Assembly: GCA_026991755.1 (NCBI GenBank)
Contig: JALXAX010000128.1
Location: forward strand, 1-51,119
DNA: 51,119 nucleotides
Direction: 5' to 3'
Source of the DNA: Thiotrichaceae bacterium
Lineage (GTDB): Bacteria; Pseudomonadota; Gammaproteobacteria; Thiotrichales; Thiotrichaceae
Notes under the pieces: model-generated
What the model was told of the DNA's origin: nothing
The model's input: the letters and a program-made list of their open reading frames with translations, nothing else
The model's database searches: none
Program-made: the position numbers and the translations under genes
In this document: in pieces, positions 8,989-51,119 of the stretch
How positions within the stretch are numbered: the first letter of the stretch is position 1
Layout: each line of letters begins with the position of its first letter

Positions 8989-10029
<1,041 letters not shown>

Positions 10030-10102: not shown

Positions 10103-10139
10103 AGAAACGAAAACGGGGATAGACTTCCGCCTATCCCCG
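10103..10139 (-). terminator. Intrinsic terminator or attenuator between rplT and pheS
   Basis: The minus strand can form a stem of nine pairs: CGGGGATAG (complement of 10131-10139) with CTATCCCCG (complement of 10114-10122), around an 8-base loop. A T-rich tail, TTTTCGTTT, follows (complement of 10105-10113). It lies 95 bp before the pheS start, the position of the pheM attenuator in enterobacteria. I found no phenylalanine-rich leader peptide, so classical attenuation is not shown; it may simply end the thrS-rplT transcript. Confidence 0.6.
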
Positions 10140-10149
10140 CTTGGTATTC

Positions 10150-10390
10150 AACCTAAAATCCTCAGTTAAACAGCCTATAGAGTGATTCTCTTCGGCTGAA
10201 TGGCGTAGTAAAAAAAGGAATTAATGGTTGATCCTTAATGAGTTTTTTTTACATAGCCAGTCAGCTGAAGAGGGTTGCTCTATAGGCTGTAGCGCCTTCA
10301 CTCTATAAGTGAAGATTGATAAAGCTTCTTACTTTAATACTATCAGTAGTTTAATAAGTGCTGGAAGCGGTTAACTGAGGAATTTAGGTT
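10150..10390 (+). repeat. Family D structured repeat, copy 1
   Basis: This 241-bp element has terminal inverted repeats (AACCTAAAATCCTCAGTTAA at the left; TTAACTGAGGAATTTAGGTT at the right). Between them a long imperfect hairpin runs from CAGCCTATAGAG (10171-10182) to CTCTATAGGCTG (10278-10289), with an inner stem CTCTTCGGCTGA/TCAGCTGAAGAG. A second small hairpin, CTTCACT/AGTGAAG, spans 10296-10314. Other copies are at 29441-29680, 47098-47336 and 50932-51119. Its left end is 10 bp from the terminator hairpin ahead of pheS. Confidence 0.85.
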
Positions 10391-10497
10391 CAACAATTTA
10401 TGCTAATTGATTATTGTGCTAACTCATTAAGTGCTAGCTAACCAAAGTGCCAACTAATCAGAATATGACTAATTAGCACACTAACTAATCAGGTAAA

Positions 10498-10857
10498 TTA
10501 TTCAGCTAGGGCGGCTTTCGCTTGCTCTGCTATTTTACCAAAAGCATCAATATCATGAACGGCTAAATCAGCAAGCATTTTACGATCTACTTCGATCTCA
10601 GCTTTGCTTAAACCATTCATTAGACGACTGTATGAAAGATCAAACATTCTAGCAGCAGCATTGATACGAACAATCCATAAACGACGGAATTGACGCTTCT
10701 TTGTGCGACGGTCACGATAAGCATATTGTCCTGCTTTTGTAACTGCCTGTGTAGCAACGCGATATACACGGCTTCGTGCGCCGTAATAACCTTTTGCTTT
10801 CTTTAATACTTTCTTATGTTTTTTACGAGCGGTAACGCCACGTTTAACTCTAGCCAT
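10498..10857 (-). CDS. rplT: 50S ribosomal protein L20
   Basis: The 119-residue protein starts [20 protein letters not shown], the canonical basic L20 N-terminus that threads into 23S rRNA. The globular C-terminal part includes [12 protein letters not shown] and YSRLMNGL. In E. coli L20 also represses translation of rpmI-rplT by binding the mRNA near infC/rpmI. It lies 15 bp after rpmI. The 107-bp AT-rich segment after its stop codon carries repeated GCTAA/TTAGC palindromes before the family D element. Confidence 0.98.
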
Positions 10858-11070: not shown

Positions 11071-11168
11071 CTTATTTCTCCTGTTCTGCGATTAACGCAG
11101 CTTGGTTGAAAAACATTCCTTAAGAGTGCCTCACCTTAAAGGAATGGTATTAAAATTTATTGATGTAT

Positions 11169-11380
11169 GAGACCTTTGCATGAAAGGATGGCGAGAGAAA
11201 AATGAGCGTAATTTTCTCTACTTCTACTAAAAAAGCAGGTAATAGCCGAGCTATTGGCCGAACTTTTAGCAGAAATAGAGGGAATTCAAGCCATTTTTTA
11301 GTGAGCTTGCCGTTTTATCAAAACGGTCAACTCAATTATTTAGCTTGCTATATCCGTCATATCTTTTGTGCAAAGGTCTC
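11169..11380 (+). mobile_element. Family A MITE-like element, copy 1, in the infC-rpmI gap
   Basis: The 212-bp element has terminal inverted repeats (GAGACCTTTGCATGAAAGGA at the left; TCTTTTGTGCAAAGGTCTC at the right) and exact 5-bp flanking duplications TGTAT (11164-11168 and 11381-11385). Inside are palindromes CCGTTTTATCAAAACGG and AATAGCCGAGCTATT. It has no coding capacity. It sits 13 bp from the infC stop codon inside a ribosomal-protein operon. Confidence 0.85.
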
Positions 11381-11393
11381 TGTATATAGCTAA

Positions 11394-15912: not shown

Positions 15913-16026
15913 AACATCACCAATTTTAATTGTTTTTTGTAATTCCCAATTGCTACAAAGTAAGAAACTTTGCGATCGTTAGCCTATTTCAGCTAACACT
16001 CTATATTACTGAATTACATTCATTAT

Positions 16027-16195
16027 GAGACTTTTGCATGAAAGAATGACGAGAAAAAAATGAGCGTAATTTCCTCTATTTTTGCTAAAAAAGAGGAAAT
16101 TCAAACCATTTTTTAGTGAGCTTGCCGTTTTATCAAAACGGTCAACTCAATTATTAAGCTTGCTATATTCGTCATTTCTTTCGTGCAAAGGTCTC
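16027..16195 (+). mobile_element. Family A MITE-like element, copy 2
   Basis: The 169-bp copy has terminal repeats GAGACTTTTGCATGAAAG and CTTTCGTGCAAAGGTCTC, with exact 5-bp flanking duplications ATTAT (16022-16026 and 16196-16200). It lacks the internal segment that holds the AATAGC/GCTATT palindrome in copy 1. This looks like a clean internal deletion of about 40 bp. Confidence 0.85.
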
Positions 16196-16200
16196 ATTAT

Positions 16201-16627
16201 AATAGTCCTGTGTATTCCCTTACGTTTTGCATAATTGCAAAACTAATACTAGACATTAATTACTACCTCATCCCTGATGATTGTAGGTCGTATCTGTTTT
16301 ATAGTTTATTATTTTTAATAAATAAACAACTCTCTTTGAGTTTTTCAAATAGGTACTGTTTGTCACCGCAATTTCCCAACAACTAAAAGATACAGTGTTT
16401 AAATATTAACAAATAGTATACATCGCTCAATTAATTTTCACTATGAACGGTATCGGCAAAGCACTACCTTTCACAAATAATGCGACCCTTCATCTAGATA
16501 GACGTTAACTTCAATGAGGAAAAAAATGGCTCTGTGGACATTGTTTGTATGCTTCGACGTGATACCTTTGCAGGATTTCTAACTCACAAAATCATGAGAG
16601 ACGGTAAGTTAGAGCGTTACAGTTATT
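16201..16627. other. Gene-free stretch between pgi and a hypothetical gene
   Basis: AT-rich sequence with only short, poorly supported open frames on either strand. A tiny frame at 16526 (MALWTLF...) follows GAGG but has only about 18 codons. Nothing recognisable was found. Confidence 0.4.
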
Positions 16628-19880: not shown

Positions 19881-20092
19881 GAGACCTTTGCGCGAAAGAT
19901 ATGACGGACATAGCAAGCTTAATAATTGAGTTGACCTTTTTGATAAAACGGCAGGCTCACTAAAAAATGGCTTGAATTCCCTCTATTTCTGCTAAAAATT
20001 CGGCCAACAGCTCGGCTATTACCCTCTTTTTTAGCAGAAATAGATGAAATTACGCTCATTTATCTCTCGCCATCCTTTCATGCAAAGCTCTC
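19881..20092 (-). mobile_element. Family A MITE-like element, copy 3 (inverted)
   Basis: The 212-bp element is in the opposite orientation to copies 1, 2, 4 and 5, with ends GAGACCTTTGCGCGAAAG and CATGCAAAGCTCTC. The flanking pentamers ATATT (19876-19880) and TTATT (20093-20097) agree at four of five positions, consistent with an aged target duplication. Confidence 0.8.
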
Positions 20093-20143
20093 TTATTAGC
20101 TGAATAGAGCCTGGAAGGCAATACATAACTAATCTTCTTAGGC

Positions 20144-20176
20144 AAAAAAATAGGGTTCAGATGAACCCTATTTTTT
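20144..20176. terminator. Bidirectional intrinsic terminator
   Basis: A-run (20144-20150), hairpin ATAGGGTT/AACCCTAT (about 20150-20171) and T-run (to 20176). It lies 39 bp downstream of the Ala-rich lipoprotein stop codon and should end that minus-strand transcript. It reads equally well on the plus strand. Confidence 0.85.
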
Positions 20177-20214
20177 AACAATATATAGCCAACTTAAGTC
20201 AACTAAGGATTGTT

Positions 20215-20499
20215 TTAGTGTGCTGCTTCTTTTGCTGCATCTACAGCATCACCTGCTGCTTCTTTAGTTGCATCAACCGCGCCAGCCGCAGCTTCTTTAC
20301 CAGCTTCAACTGCTGCACCCGCTGCATCTTTAGCAGCATCAGTTACATTTCCGCCAGCTTCCATAGTTGCTTTACCAGCATCCATTGCTGCACCGGCTGC
20401 ATCTCCAGCCGCGCCTTTTGCTGCATCCATGGCATCTTCGCCACAGGCAGTAAGGCCAGCAGCAAGAATAAGAGTTGCAAATAAGGTAGATAATTTCAT
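20215..20499 (-). CDS. Ala-rich repeat lipoprotein
   Basis: From the ATG at 20499 (GGAG upstream) the protein has 94 residues. A signal peptide ends in the lipobox LTAC, giving lipidated Cys19. The rest is almost only Ala, Gly, Asp, Glu, Lys and Met in an 11-residue rhythm such as DAAKGAAGDAAGA and DATKEAAGDAV, predicting an amphipathic helix like LEA-type or apolipoprotein-like proteins. It resembles small abundant periplasmic helix lipoproteins, but no specific function can be assigned. It is a single gene with its own terminator. Confidence 0.8.
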   Translation of the reverse strand: MKLSTLFATLILAAGLTACGEDAMDAAKGAAGDAAGAAMDAGKATMEAGGNVTDAAKDAAGAAVEAGKEAAAGAVDATKEAAGDAVDAAKEAAH

Positions 20500-20763
20500 T
20501 TCTTTCTCCACAAAGTATATGAATTCCAATACTGCATTTAGTACTAACACCAGATGCTTATCGAAACACTCAACAAACCAGAATAGTTTCTGATTACTAG
20601 CACATAAAACCAAGACCAAGACCAATATTTATTGGCTCAGACTACACGTTACATGCTCGGTTCGTAGTCTATATGAAAAAAAATGAATTACCAGCATGAT
20701 CTACGCTGCACGCCTATCTAATTCGCTTGAAAATCTTACAGTTACATTGAAAATATACAATAT

Positions 20764-20973
20764 GAGCCTTTGCATGAAAGGATGACGAGAGAAAAACGAG
20801 CGTAATTTTCTCTATTATCTGCTAAAAAAGAGTGTAATAGTCAAGCTATTGGCCGAATTTTTAGCAGAAATAGAGGGAATTTAACCTTTTTTAGTGAGCT
20901 TGCCGTTTTATCAAAACAGTCAACTCAATTATTAAGCTTGCTAAATCCGCCGTATCCTTCATGCAAAGGCCTC
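20764..20973 (+). mobile_element. Family A MITE-like element, copy 4
   Basis: The 210-bp element has ends GAGCCTTTGCATGAAAG and CATGCAAAGGCCTC and exact 5-bp duplications AATAT (20759-20763 and 20974-20978). The end base pairs GCC/GGC have changed on both sides relative to the usual ACC/GGT, so the terminal repeat is kept complementary. Confidence 0.85.
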
Positions 20974-20992
20974 AATATGTTGATAACGACAC

Positions 20993-21159
20993 TAGGAGAC
21001 TGCCAGAGAACTAAGAAGCTACTGCAAATCCCATGAGCATCATAATCTGAGGTTATTGAAATCGTTAAATAGCTACGGCTATTCGCCTCTTCCAATAATC
21101 TCACCTTATGATACTCCTGTGATTTTCGCTACGTTTCCTATTCTAGGACAGCCTCCTAG
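20993..21159 (+). repeat. Family B palindromic repeat, full copy
   Basis: The terminal inverted repeats are TAGGAGACTGCC and GGACAGCCTCCTA. The core CTACTGCAAATCCCATGA and CCTGTGATTTTCGCTACG is shared with 27924-28020. This copy is longer (167 bp against 97 bp) because of an internal ATTGAAATCGTTAAATAGC segment. It ends 3 bp before the bactofilin stop codon. Confidence 0.75.
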
Positions 21160-22077: not shown

Positions 22078-22353
22078 GAAAAAACCCTTTATTACCTTTT
22101 ATAGGTACGAAAATACACGAAACGTCTTATGATTTGAAAGACATTTCAGCTAGTAGCCCCTTTGTAACTGACAAAATAACCTCATACCAGACTACTCATC
22201 CTTTATAACCATCTGACGAAACACTAAAAAACAATTACTTGCCCCGACAATGTCTCCTAATGTATTGCAAAAAGGCTGGAAATACCACTCATACCCCCCA
22301 TTTAGACAGCTTGTCTGCTATTATGTATCATCTACAGAGTGATAATAATTAAT

Positions 22354-22512
22354 GAGACCTTTGCATGAAAGGATGGCGAGAGAAAAATGAGCGTAATTTT
22401 TCAGATTTTGTCTAAAAAAGAAGATAATAGCCGAGCTATTGGCTGAGTTTTTAGACAAAATATGGGAAATTCAAGCCTTTTTAATCCGTCATATCTTTCG
22501 TGCAAAGGTCTC
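22354..22512 (+). mobile_element. Family A MITE-like element, copy 5
   Basis: The 159-bp copy has ends GAGACCTTTGCATGAAAGG and CTTTCGTGCAAAGGTCTC. The flanks TTAAT and TATTA do not match base for base, but ATTAAT occurs on both sides one base out of register. The internal stem reads GTCTAAAA/TTTTAGAC where other copies have TGCTAAAA/TTTTAGCA, so both arms changed together. It ends 45 bp upstream of the first gene of the GTPase-roadblock gene set. Confidence 0.8.
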
Positions 22513-27898: not shown

Positions 27899-27923
27899 AG
27901 CACTTTTTATGTGTATACTGTTC

Positions 27924-28020
27924 AAGGAGGCTGCCCGAGAACTAAGAAGCTACTGCAAATCCCATGATCATCATAATCCTGTGATTTTCGCTACGCTTAT
28001 ATTTCTCGGACAGCCTCCTA
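27924..28020 (+). repeat. Family B palindromic repeat, short copy
   Basis: The 97-bp copy has ends AAGGAGGCTGCCCGAGA and TCTCGGACAGCCTCCT. It carries the same core as the copies at 140 and 20993. It lies 26 bp after the FimV-like gene and could fold into a hairpin at the end of that transcript. Confidence 0.75.
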
Positions 28021-29389: not shown

Positions 29390-29741
29390 CCTGAATCCGT
29401 GCCTTCAATGAGAATATCGTAGCGTAAGATATTTATTTTTAACCTAGAATCTTCAGTTAGACGGCTTATAGAGTAATTCTCACAGGCTGAGTGGCGCAGT
29501 GAAAAAAGGAGTTAATGGTTGATCCTTAATGAGTTTTTTCACATAGCCAATCAGTCTGTGAGGGTTGCTCTATAAGCTGTAGCGCCCTCACTCTAAGAGT
29601 GAAGATTAATACCACCATTTACTTACATCCTATCAGATACTTAGCAAAGACTTGGAGCGGTTAACTGAGGATTCTAGGTTTAACGGGATTTTAAAAAATA
29701 TTAGCTTGTACCCTGTGCCGTAGTGAAGTAACGGGTTCAGG
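29390..29741. repeat. Family F element interrupted by family D
   Basis: The left arm CTGAATCCGTGCCTTCAATG (29391 on) and the right arm GCCGTAGTGAAGTAACGGGTTCAG (29717-29740 region) are the two ends seen together at 419-615. A complete family D element (29441-29680) occupies the space between them. The layers suggest F was present first and D entered it. Confidence 0.65.
29441..29680 (+). repeat. Family D structured repeat, copy 2
   Basis: The 240-bp copy has ends AACCTAGAATC and GATTCTAGGTT, which are perfect inverted repeats. Its stems differ from copy 1 yet still pair: CTCACAGGCTGA/TCAGTCTGTGAG replaces CTCTTCGGCTGA/TCAGCTGAAGAG; CTTATAGAG/CTCTATAAG replaces CCTATAGAG/CTCTATAGG; GTGAAAAAA/TTTTTTCAC replaces GTAAAAAAA/TTTTTTTAC. 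It lies inside a family F element between the OmpA-like gene and bolA. Confidence 0.85.
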
Positions 29742-37334: not shown

Positions 37335-37496
37335 ATACATTATCACCACCTCTAGTCAGCCTTGTAAGAGTCATTAGCGTTACTTATGAGACAGCAATAA
37401 AAGAAACATCGCTCAACACAGGCTATGCGAGTACTCAACTCTTAAATATCACTCTACAAGCATGTTCCTAGAAAACGCAGTTGAATCACAAAAGTC

Positions 37497-37546
37497 CACG
37501 CAAGCTATTGGTGCACCATGCATACCAATAGCTTACGTGTCTTTTT
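37497..37546 (+). terminator. Intrinsic terminator of the Bat operon, made from a family G repeat
   Basis: CACGCAAGCTATTGGT (37497-37512) pairs with ACCAATAGCTTACGTG (37524-37539) with one mismatch and is followed by TCTTTTT (37540-37546). The first arm and about 30 bp before it (37468-37511) recur at 43791-43832 without the second arm, so the terminator seems to derive from a repeated element. Confidence 0.8.
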
Positions 37547-42661: not shown

Positions 42662-42897
42662 ATTATCTTTATTTATTCTCTTATACCTTGCATGAAAGGT
42701 GGAAAGATACCCAGCCGAAGGGAGTATAAAGTAACTGGGTTGCAAAATAACCTCAGATAATTATCCTTAGAATATAAACCCCATCTTGAATTGATTTATA
42801 GAAAACCTTTGCACGAAAGATTTGAAGCCCAGCCTATGATAATCCAGTGATTTTCACTACGCCTCTAGTACATCATCAACCAGCTATGGGTAGTAAA
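42662..42897. repeat. Remnants of family A and B repeats
   Basis: CCTTGCATGAAAGG (about 42687), ACCTTTGCACGAAAGATTTGA (from 42801) and CAGTGATTTTCACTACGCCT (about 42845) echo the ends of family A and the core of family B, without whole elements. No gene is seen between feoA and the methyltransferase gene. Confidence 0.45.
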
Positions 42898-43703: not shown

Positions 43704-43832
43704 CTTAATGATAACTGGAGGCGGTCAACTGAGGAATCTAGTGCATAACTAAAGTGCAGTTGGACAACTTGTAGAGTGATCTTGTTTAACCTAGAAACGT
43801 AGTTGATCACGAACGTCCACGCAAGCTATTGG
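43704..43832. repeat. Family D right-end remnant and family G fragment
   Basis: GGCGGTCAACTGAGGAATCTA (43720-43740) matches the right end of family D. CCTAGAAACGTAGTTGATCAC and GTCCACGCAAGCTATTGG (43790-43832) match 37468-37511, the front arm of the Bat operon terminator. The gap 43609-43885 shows no gene. Confidence 0.55.
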
Positions 43833-43885
43833 CACACTGAGCAAAACAGATAGATATCCATTACTGAACGTAGTGAATTTCATGG

Positions 43886-47097: not shown

Positions 47098-47336
47098 AAC
47101 CTAAATTCCTCAGTTAACCGCTTCCAATATTAAATAGATTATTGATAGCATTAAAGTAAGTAGCTTTATCTAGCTTCACTTATAGAGTGAAGGCGCTACA
47201 GCCTATAGAGCAACCCTCTTCGACTGACTGACTATGTGAAAAAACTCATTAAGGATCAACCATTAATTCCTTTTTTTACTACGCCATTCAACCGAAGAGA
47301 ATCACTCTATAGGCTGTCTAACTGAGGATTTTAGGA
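47098..47336 (-). repeat. Family D structured repeat, copy 3 (inverted)
   Basis: The 239-bp copy is inverted relative to copy 1. Its stem reads CTCTTCGGTTGA/TCAGTCGAAGAG on the minus strand, still fully paired through wobble pairs. Its left end (47336) lies 8 bp from the acnB terminator hairpin, repeating the arrangement seen before pheS. Confidence 0.85.
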
Positions 47337-50931: not shown

Positions 50932-51119
50932 AACCTAAAATCCTCAGTTAGACAGTCTATAGAGTGACTCTCTTCGGCTGAATGGCGTAGTGAAAAAAGG
51001 AATTAATGGTTGATCCTTAATGAGTTTTTTTACATAGCCAGTCAGTCGAAGAGGGTTGCTCTATAGGCTGTAGCGCCTTCACTCTATAAGTGAAGATAGA
51101 TAAAGCTGCTTACTTTAAT
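50932..51119 (+). repeat. Family D structured repeat, copy 4 (cut by window end)
   Basis: The left end AACCTAAAATCCTCAGTTAG and both hairpins are present. The stem CTCTTCGGCTGA/TCAGTCGAAGAG is fully paired; GTGAAAAAA faces TTTTTTTAC with one wobble pair. The right terminal repeat would lie beyond the window. Confidence 0.85.

Follow-up and report, generated by a model that had tools for sequence, protein, structure and literature searches.

A small non-autonomous element of Thiotrichaceae and other proteobacteria with a hairpin selected on one strand, most likely as RNA

Introduction

Short repeats that encode no protein but fold into long hairpins raise the question of whether the fold is a by-product of inverted repeats or is itself maintained, and if so, in which molecule. 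The case considered here comes from a contig of a Thiotrichaceae bacterium (JALXAX010000128.1, assembly GCA_026991755.1), analysed over its 51,119 nucleotides (hereafter, the window), in which a first-pass annotation had described four copies of a repeat, family D, whose hairpin arms differ by paired substitutions, with a nearly fixed loop, and had concluded that the fold is selected, as RNA or as a DNA hairpin, or is kept in register during transposition. With a probability of roughly 0.7, we interpret family D as part of an old, horizontally spread, non-autonomous element of ~235 bp, in which a hairpin of one strand is selected, most likely as RNA, and which is probably mobilised by a transposase of the IS1380 type.

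Family D in the window

The four copies and the parts of copy 1 are located as follows (TIR, terminal inverted repeat; E-values refer to the covariance model R1 described below).

10152-10388, + strand: copy 1, matched by the model at 10168-10294 (E 3.7e-12)
10147-10151, no strand: left target-site duplication of copy 1, TTCAA, the same letters as 10389-10393
10152-10168, + strand: left TIR of copy 1, CCTAAAATCCTCAGTTA, 17 bp, of the same class as the TIR of an IS1380-family IS in locus L288
10170-10216, + strand: left arm of the long hairpin of copy 1, inverted repeat
10217-10243, + strand: apical part of copy 1, type II, AAAAAAAGG..GGTTGATCC..TTTTTTT, nearly fixed genome-wide
10244-10290, + strand: right arm of the long hairpin of copy 1, inverted repeat
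10297-10313, no strand: subterminal palindrome of copy 1, TTCACT-ctata-AGTGAA (family form TCACC-N5-GGTGA)
10372-10388, - strand: right TIR of copy 1, CCTAAATTCCTCAGTTA, 17 bp, inverted repeat with the left TIR
10389-10393, no strand: right target-site duplication of copy 1, TTCAA, the same letters as 10147-10151
29443-29678, + strand: copy 2, stem allele CTCACAGG, flanks TTTAA/TTTAA (E 6.5e-11)
47100-47335, - strand: copy 3, stem allele CTCTTCGG with an A·C mismatch, flanks TTAAA/ATAAA (E 3.1e-11)
50934-51119, + strand: copy 4, left flank TTCAA, truncated by the contig end (E 3.9e-12)

All four copies and every paired difference previously listed for them are present in the sequence, including the wobble intermediate of copy 4, a G·T pair (GTGAAAAAA/TTTTTTTAC); what had been missed is the A·C mismatch of copy 3 at the same pair (GTAAAAAAA/TTTTTTCAC). 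No open reading frame of 100 aa or more terminates within copies 1-3, in line with the claim that the element encodes no protein. The predicted RNA fold of copy 1 has an energy of -114.7 kcal/mol vs -55.4 +/- 4.2 kcal/mol for dinucleotide shuffles (z = -14), and none of the 4227 Rfam covariance models matched within the elements up to an E-value of 5. Copy 1 lies between pheS (8989-10008, minus strand) and rplT (10498-10857, minus strand), both named by Pfam; beside it, at 10111-10142, a strong bidirectional terminator-like stem, possibly a pheST attenuator, is located between the same two genes.

The genome is rich in small repeats. Within the window, the segments 11158-11386, 16024-16201, 19963-20979 and 22343-22512 belong to a different family of repeats, in which the inverted repeats are long (ATGAGACCTTTGCATGAAAGG ... 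CGTGCAAAGGTCTC), and further short repeat families occupy 137-219, 20989-21071, 27920-28002, 37485-37527 and 43806-43848.

Family D across the genome

The source genome (3.66 Mb, 207 contigs) contains 73 occurrences of the loop with at most one mismatch and 140 perfect instances of the TIR pattern. We extracted 73 copies, 53 of which are complete. The basic form is 236 bp long, with 17-bp TIRs and 5-bp target duplications; 30 complete copies measure 234-238 bp, 17 measure 272-273 bp and 6 measure 318-322 bp. A 37-bp insert interrupts the right arm in 21 of the 53, and the six longest copies have a further left-arm insert of ~48 bp. In two copies (L024 and L028), the reverse complement of the 37-bp insert occupies the precise mirror site of the left arm, showing either that sequence can pass between the arms or that a tiny insert re-entered the mirror target. 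Three stem alleles dominate (CTCTTCGG, CTTTTAGG and CTCACAGG), and the right arm is complementary in each. Exact 5-bp duplications, with the consensus WTNAW, flank 36 of the 53 complete copies, compared to a mean of 8.9 and a maximum of 17 when partners are shuffled. The copies are mostly intergenic, and many are decayed or truncated. Family D thus has the properties of MITEs, namely TIRs, target duplications, a length of 227-322 bp (own copies and the wider set described below; less than ~500 bp) and no transposase gene, and is a non-autonomous transposable element.

Distribution and likely mobiliser

A scan of named genomes for the pattern TIR-N(181-241)-TIR returned at least 101 stretches, in Nitrosomonas, Rhodoferax, Undibacterium, Polaromonas, Comamonadaceae, Candidatus Thiodiazotropha, Arenicellales, Thiotrichaceae and others. 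Among the 86 TIR pairs extracted, 234 bp is the modal length (27 pairs), followed by 235 bp (14), nearly all spanning 227-252 bp, and exact 5-bp duplications flank 56 of 85-86, vs 6.3 after shuffling. Carriers include Nitrosomonas sp. Nm33 and Undibacterium amnicola, and shared coordinates of matches put the window into one genus with two Thiotrichaceae MAGs. The plasmid collection yielded two copies, and no match was found in the viral and phage collections or in a contig pattern search restricted to the D loop; a literature search, largely without subscription papers, retrieved nothing on this element. On the conjugative plasmid p5 of Caballeronia grimmiae (L306, 3001-3234), a 234-bp element fills nearly the whole gap between convergent genes, starting 1 bp past one stop codon and ending 5 bp ahead of the other.

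Several shorter or distinct forms share these ends. Hairpin-less derivatives of 84-132 bp (L106 1501-1632 in genome G003, L088 467-591, L095 800-883 and L086 1439-1522) keep intact TIRs and perfect 5-bp duplications; in the G003 derivative, the hairpin is removed and CAGCCTATAGGCTG remains. Nitrosomonas sp. Nm33 harbours ~13 near-identical copies of a 250-bp MITE (L172, L182, L197) with the same TIR and no such hairpin; lacking hairpin homology, these were rejected as relatives and are considered a separate MITE. Contig ends of the Thiotrichaceae genome G022 (L107, L113, L119, L124, L130) stop at this TIR, which suggests an unassembled multi-copy element or IS. A candidate IS from G022 was dropped as mobiliser when the IS body was not recovered.

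The first-pass annotation had called for a search for a full-length relative that combines these terminal repeats with a transposase, and such relatives do exist, in other genomes, as IS1380-family ISs. The one in Nitrosomonas sp. Nm33 (L288) is 1729 bp long, encodes a PF13701 transposase (E 4.9e-17), ends in the TIRs CCTATTTTCCTCAGTT / CCTAAATTCCTCTTTT and is flanked by an exact duplication of TTTAT. On a plasmid of Polaromonas P1-6 (L305), an IS1380 IS with a TTAAA duplication, the transposase of which is 50.6% identical to that of Nm33, lies ~360 bp from a 234-bp element, with which it has the TIR variant CCTAGAAACGGCAGTT (also written CGGCAGTT) in common. In both ISs, the palindrome TCACC-N5-GGTGA has an offset of 76, counted from the left end, and overlaps the transposase start codon; 94 of 110 elements have it 74-77 bp from the right end, mostly without the ATG, and in copy 1 it is ~75 bp from the right end, its place at the left end of the ISs. 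Given the TIR and the palindrome at a matching offset, the right end of the element corresponds to the left end of the IS, and the palindrome probably serves as a site for the transposase or as an operator. The TIRs, the 5-bp WTNAW duplications and the right end, all matching an IS1380 IS, point to an IS1380-type transposase as the likely mobiliser in trans.

No IS with this TIR was found in the genome of the window, the fragmented assembly of which may have lost it, and its own IS1380 fragments (C108 and C140) were rejected as mobilisers, their flanks being without the TIR. The Nm33-type transposase had no match in 63 genomes of the family, in a search run without a positive control. We also rejected the possibility that the element produces an antisense RNA to the transposase mRNA: the spacer between the TIR and the palindrome differs between element and IS, so that the two have no long complementarity.

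Covariation in the hairpin

The statistical covariation test that had been proposed as a check on the selected fold came out negative in the own genome and positive in the relatives. We used our own script, in the manner of R-scape, with a null in which the substitutions inferred on a branch are reassigned to randomly chosen columns; this script and those for the event tests below rely on parsimony on a tree that ignores recombination among copies. Applied to the 53 genomic copies, the phylogeny-aware test found no pair significant (0), since two-sided change happened only about once per pair, and the coupling among the four window copies is suggestive, no proof of selection. The relatives were represented by an alignment of 51 oriented hairpins, none of them from the genome of the window, for which RNAalifold predicted 37 pairs, 34 of them with two-sided changes. 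Paired cells amount to 93.7% vs 64.4% in shuffled alignments, and the covariation score is 0.801, vs 0.254 shuffled and 0.07-0.16 slid. The phylogeny-aware test found 5 significant pairs, all 5 inside the structure and 0 outside, and a rougher full-length alignment gave 6, again all (6/6) in the structure. The relatives therefore prove coupled changes in the hairpin.

A covariance model built from the 51 relatives, with family D left out (R1), matches all four window copies (E-values from 3.7e-12 to 6.5e-11); family D therefore belongs to the same lineage. Family D has a different apical part (type II) atop the lower stem common to the lineage; type II is also present in L184 and partly in L175.

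Selection on one strand

The hairpins of the relatives contain G·T in 290 cells and A·C in 22. Inferred events starting from Watson-Crick pairs show the same asymmetry (79 to G·T vs 20 to A·C; 18 vs 0 on internal branches), as do the own copies, with 37 G·T vs 10 A·C in the hairpin and 21 vs 23 in other stems of the same copies (Fisher 0.0025). The subterminal palindrome, used as a control, has 29 A·C vs 17 G·T and no strand asymmetry of the hairpin kind. Furthermore, of the two strands it is the + strand that has the better fold in 50 of the 51 relatives (medians of -70 vs -48 kcal/mol) and in 30 of 30 own copies. Since neither a cruciform nor correction between arms has a strand preference, it is a single-stranded molecule of one strand, the element + strand (the window + strand at copies 1, 2 and 4), whose fold is selected. 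Thus, from the initial alternative of RNA or DNA hairpin, the one-strand fold is supported and the double-stranded cruciform is disfavoured.

RNA is favoured as the selected molecule because several positions are wobble-dominated; adjacent U·G/G·U pairs occur at columns 18-19 with 114-115. The selected fold could instead be that of single-stranded DNA, as an intermediate, a priming site or a hairpin recognised by a protein. Folding with DNA parameters indeed gives the asymmetry as well (49 of 51 relatives favour the + strand), a promoter scan of copy 1 found 1 promoter-like site vs 1.3 expected, that is, not above chance, and the copies show no bias in orientation relative to genes. However, the substrate of DDE transposases, among them IS1380 (PF13701), is generally double-stranded DNA, the TIRs and target duplications fit transposition of that kind, and the wobble-dominated positions with their adjacent U·G/G·U pairs suit RNA better, so we consider single-stranded DNA rather unlikely to be the selected molecule.

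A different challenge comes from copying between the arms, by template switching or gene conversion, which would match the arms without selection and turn 'compensatory' changes into single mutational events. The mirror-site 37-bp insert (right arm of 21 complete copies, left arm of 2), the clustered allele switches, such as CTTC to CACA, in both arms and the occurrence of about one double event per pair in the genome all agree with such copying, and the insert suggests that it does occur as well. Nevertheless, arm-to-arm copying predicts no preference for G·T over A·C, at odds with the 290 vs 22 and 37 vs 10 counted above next to balanced controls, and the hairpins retain wobble pairs and conserved internal mismatches that it would have erased. 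Recombination between arms, named in the first-pass annotation as a way in which its reading might fail, is therefore partly real but cannot explain the strand asymmetry, and as an account of the hairpin as a whole we find it quite improbable.

Timing of selection and host setting

On the internal branches of the tree of own copies, 33 hairpin changes keep pairing and 0 break it, whereas on terminal branches 62 keep it and 31 of 94 break a pair (Fisher 3e-5 vs internal). Single changes preserve pairing in 19 of 19 cases on internal branches vs 44.5% expected, and in 48 of 79 on terminal branches (P 0.004), where some constraint is left; no broken pair has been inherited by more than one copy. 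This pattern fits selection on active elements that is relaxed after insertion. Together, the covariation in 51 outside relatives, the excess of G·T over A·C and the retention of pairing on all internal branches uphold the original claim of a selected fold on evidence that is new to it.

The same data bear on a possible function at the level of the host, under which the copies would be kept as stabilisers of mRNA 3' ends, processing sites or terminators. The mostly intergenic location of the own copies would agree with such a role, and reviews describe stably folded MITE transcripts by which neighbouring mRNAs are altered (PMC10969869, PMC3733652). Yet the + strand is unbiased with respect to gene direction (12:15 among own copies, 20:27 in the wider set), which makes a host role of individual copies less likely; no convincing 3'-end bias was seen, no terminator was predicted in the copy 1 hairpin, and pairing is lost after insertion (31 of the 94 terminal changes), leaving this explanation very unlikely. 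Finally, an ordinary decaying MITE, that is, a deletion derivative whose core is palindromic but has no structure under selection, would account for the TIRs, the target duplications, the lack of coding capacity and the many decayed or truncated copies but is hardly credible given the conservation of length and hairpin over two bacterial classes, the significant covariation and the absence of any broken pair inherited by more than one copy.

We therefore prefer the selected RNA hairpin of a non-autonomous element. On this reading, family D is the Thiotrichaceae branch of this old, horizontally spread element, and its hairpin of ~120 nt occupies the place of the transposase gene in IS1380 ISs. 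With pairs covarying across beta- and gammaproteobacteria, the fold is selected on one strand and matters during the activity of the element, multi-copy lineages having kept pairing that private changes of single copies often break. We infer that the fold acts as an RNA transcribed across the element and that it may aid the propagation of the element itself. One point counts against this explanation: if the element had retained the promoter from which the IS transcribes its transposase gene at the left end, that promoter would read the opposite strand.

The hairpin in other MITEs

R1 has matches in 54 of 398 genomes. That all of these are copies of the same element was rejected, as among 30 loci checked only the three strongest have the TIR pair. 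At weaker loci, the apical motif AAGGCG...CAACGC is found in elements with other terminal repeats, of the following kinds.

GTGTGGTGTTTCAGAAGTT
TATACCCAAGC.ACCTCAAGATGC, also in plasmid-collection records of Pseudoalteromonas and Photobacterium
GAAGGTRCGAAYAAGTC
CTAGTACATCAACCAG, in the own genome

Two of these end kinds carry two hairpins in opposite orientation. The E-values of ~1e-9 to 1e-4 at the level of genomes are fair; those of the fetched loci, from 4e-12 to 1e-3, come from loci chosen as prior matches. The MITE kind with CTAGTACATCAACCAG ends and two opposed type-I hairpins is located at L393-L397 of the own genome (contigs C12, C111, C158, C185 and C189), and a related repeat end occurs in the window at 42836-42889. 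Elements of ~266 bp with ERIC-like TATACCC ends and two inverted type-I hairpins are present in L385-L388 (G200) and in plasmid records H29-H33, in Pseudoalteromonas and Photobacterium.

The recurrence of this hairpin in MITEs whose ends differ points to a shared part, and its covariance model could annotate many unexplained intergenic repeats. We put forward, tentatively and with more doubt than confidence, that the hairpin is a mobile structured-RNA module passed between transposase families for an RNA-based propagation advantage independent of the transposase.

Comparison with known systems

The cores of MITEs are commonly regarded as remnants, with folds that arise as by-products of inverted repeats. 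Here, core length and fold are conserved across two bacterial classes, and the hairpin shows the pattern of changes to be expected of a functional single-strand fold, which is missing from an internal DNA control. It thus becomes testable whether non-autonomous elements carry RNA that aids their own spread. The element resembles MITEs in its basic form of less than 300 bp, TIRs, target duplications, lack of a gene, many intergenic copies and stable predicted fold; unlike them, it is one lineage of near-constant length, with a covarying one-strand fold, spread over beta- and gammaproteobacteria, and not a recent deletion product of a single IS. REP and REPIN sequences with RAYT transposases are likewise palindromic repeats, recognised as a one-strand fold, whereas the ends and 5-bp duplications of our element are of the DDE transposase kind.

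The ERIC or IRU repeats of enterobacteria are short, conserved palindromes of intergenic regions for which an RNA fold has been predicted (PMC2759123). Membership in ERIC was rejected, as an E. coli ERIC copy scores 5 bits against the hairpin model. TIME is likewise non-autonomous, of conserved length (262 bp) despite divergent cores, with similar predicted RNA folds and a transposase supplied in trans. It differs in its 38-bp Tn3-family ends, its usually single copy and its description from Pseudomonas, and the available passages of its description contain no covariation or strand test; the present element has IS1380-family ends of 17-18 bp (CCTARAWTCCTCAGTT) in place of the 38-bp Tn3 ends and reaches up to 73 copies per genome. 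The IS1380 family (PF13701) itself is a further relative in the ends, as the element shares with it the TIR class, the 5-bp duplication and the TCACC-N5-GGTGA palindrome 76 bp from the end and differs from it in having, instead of a transposase, the hairpin.
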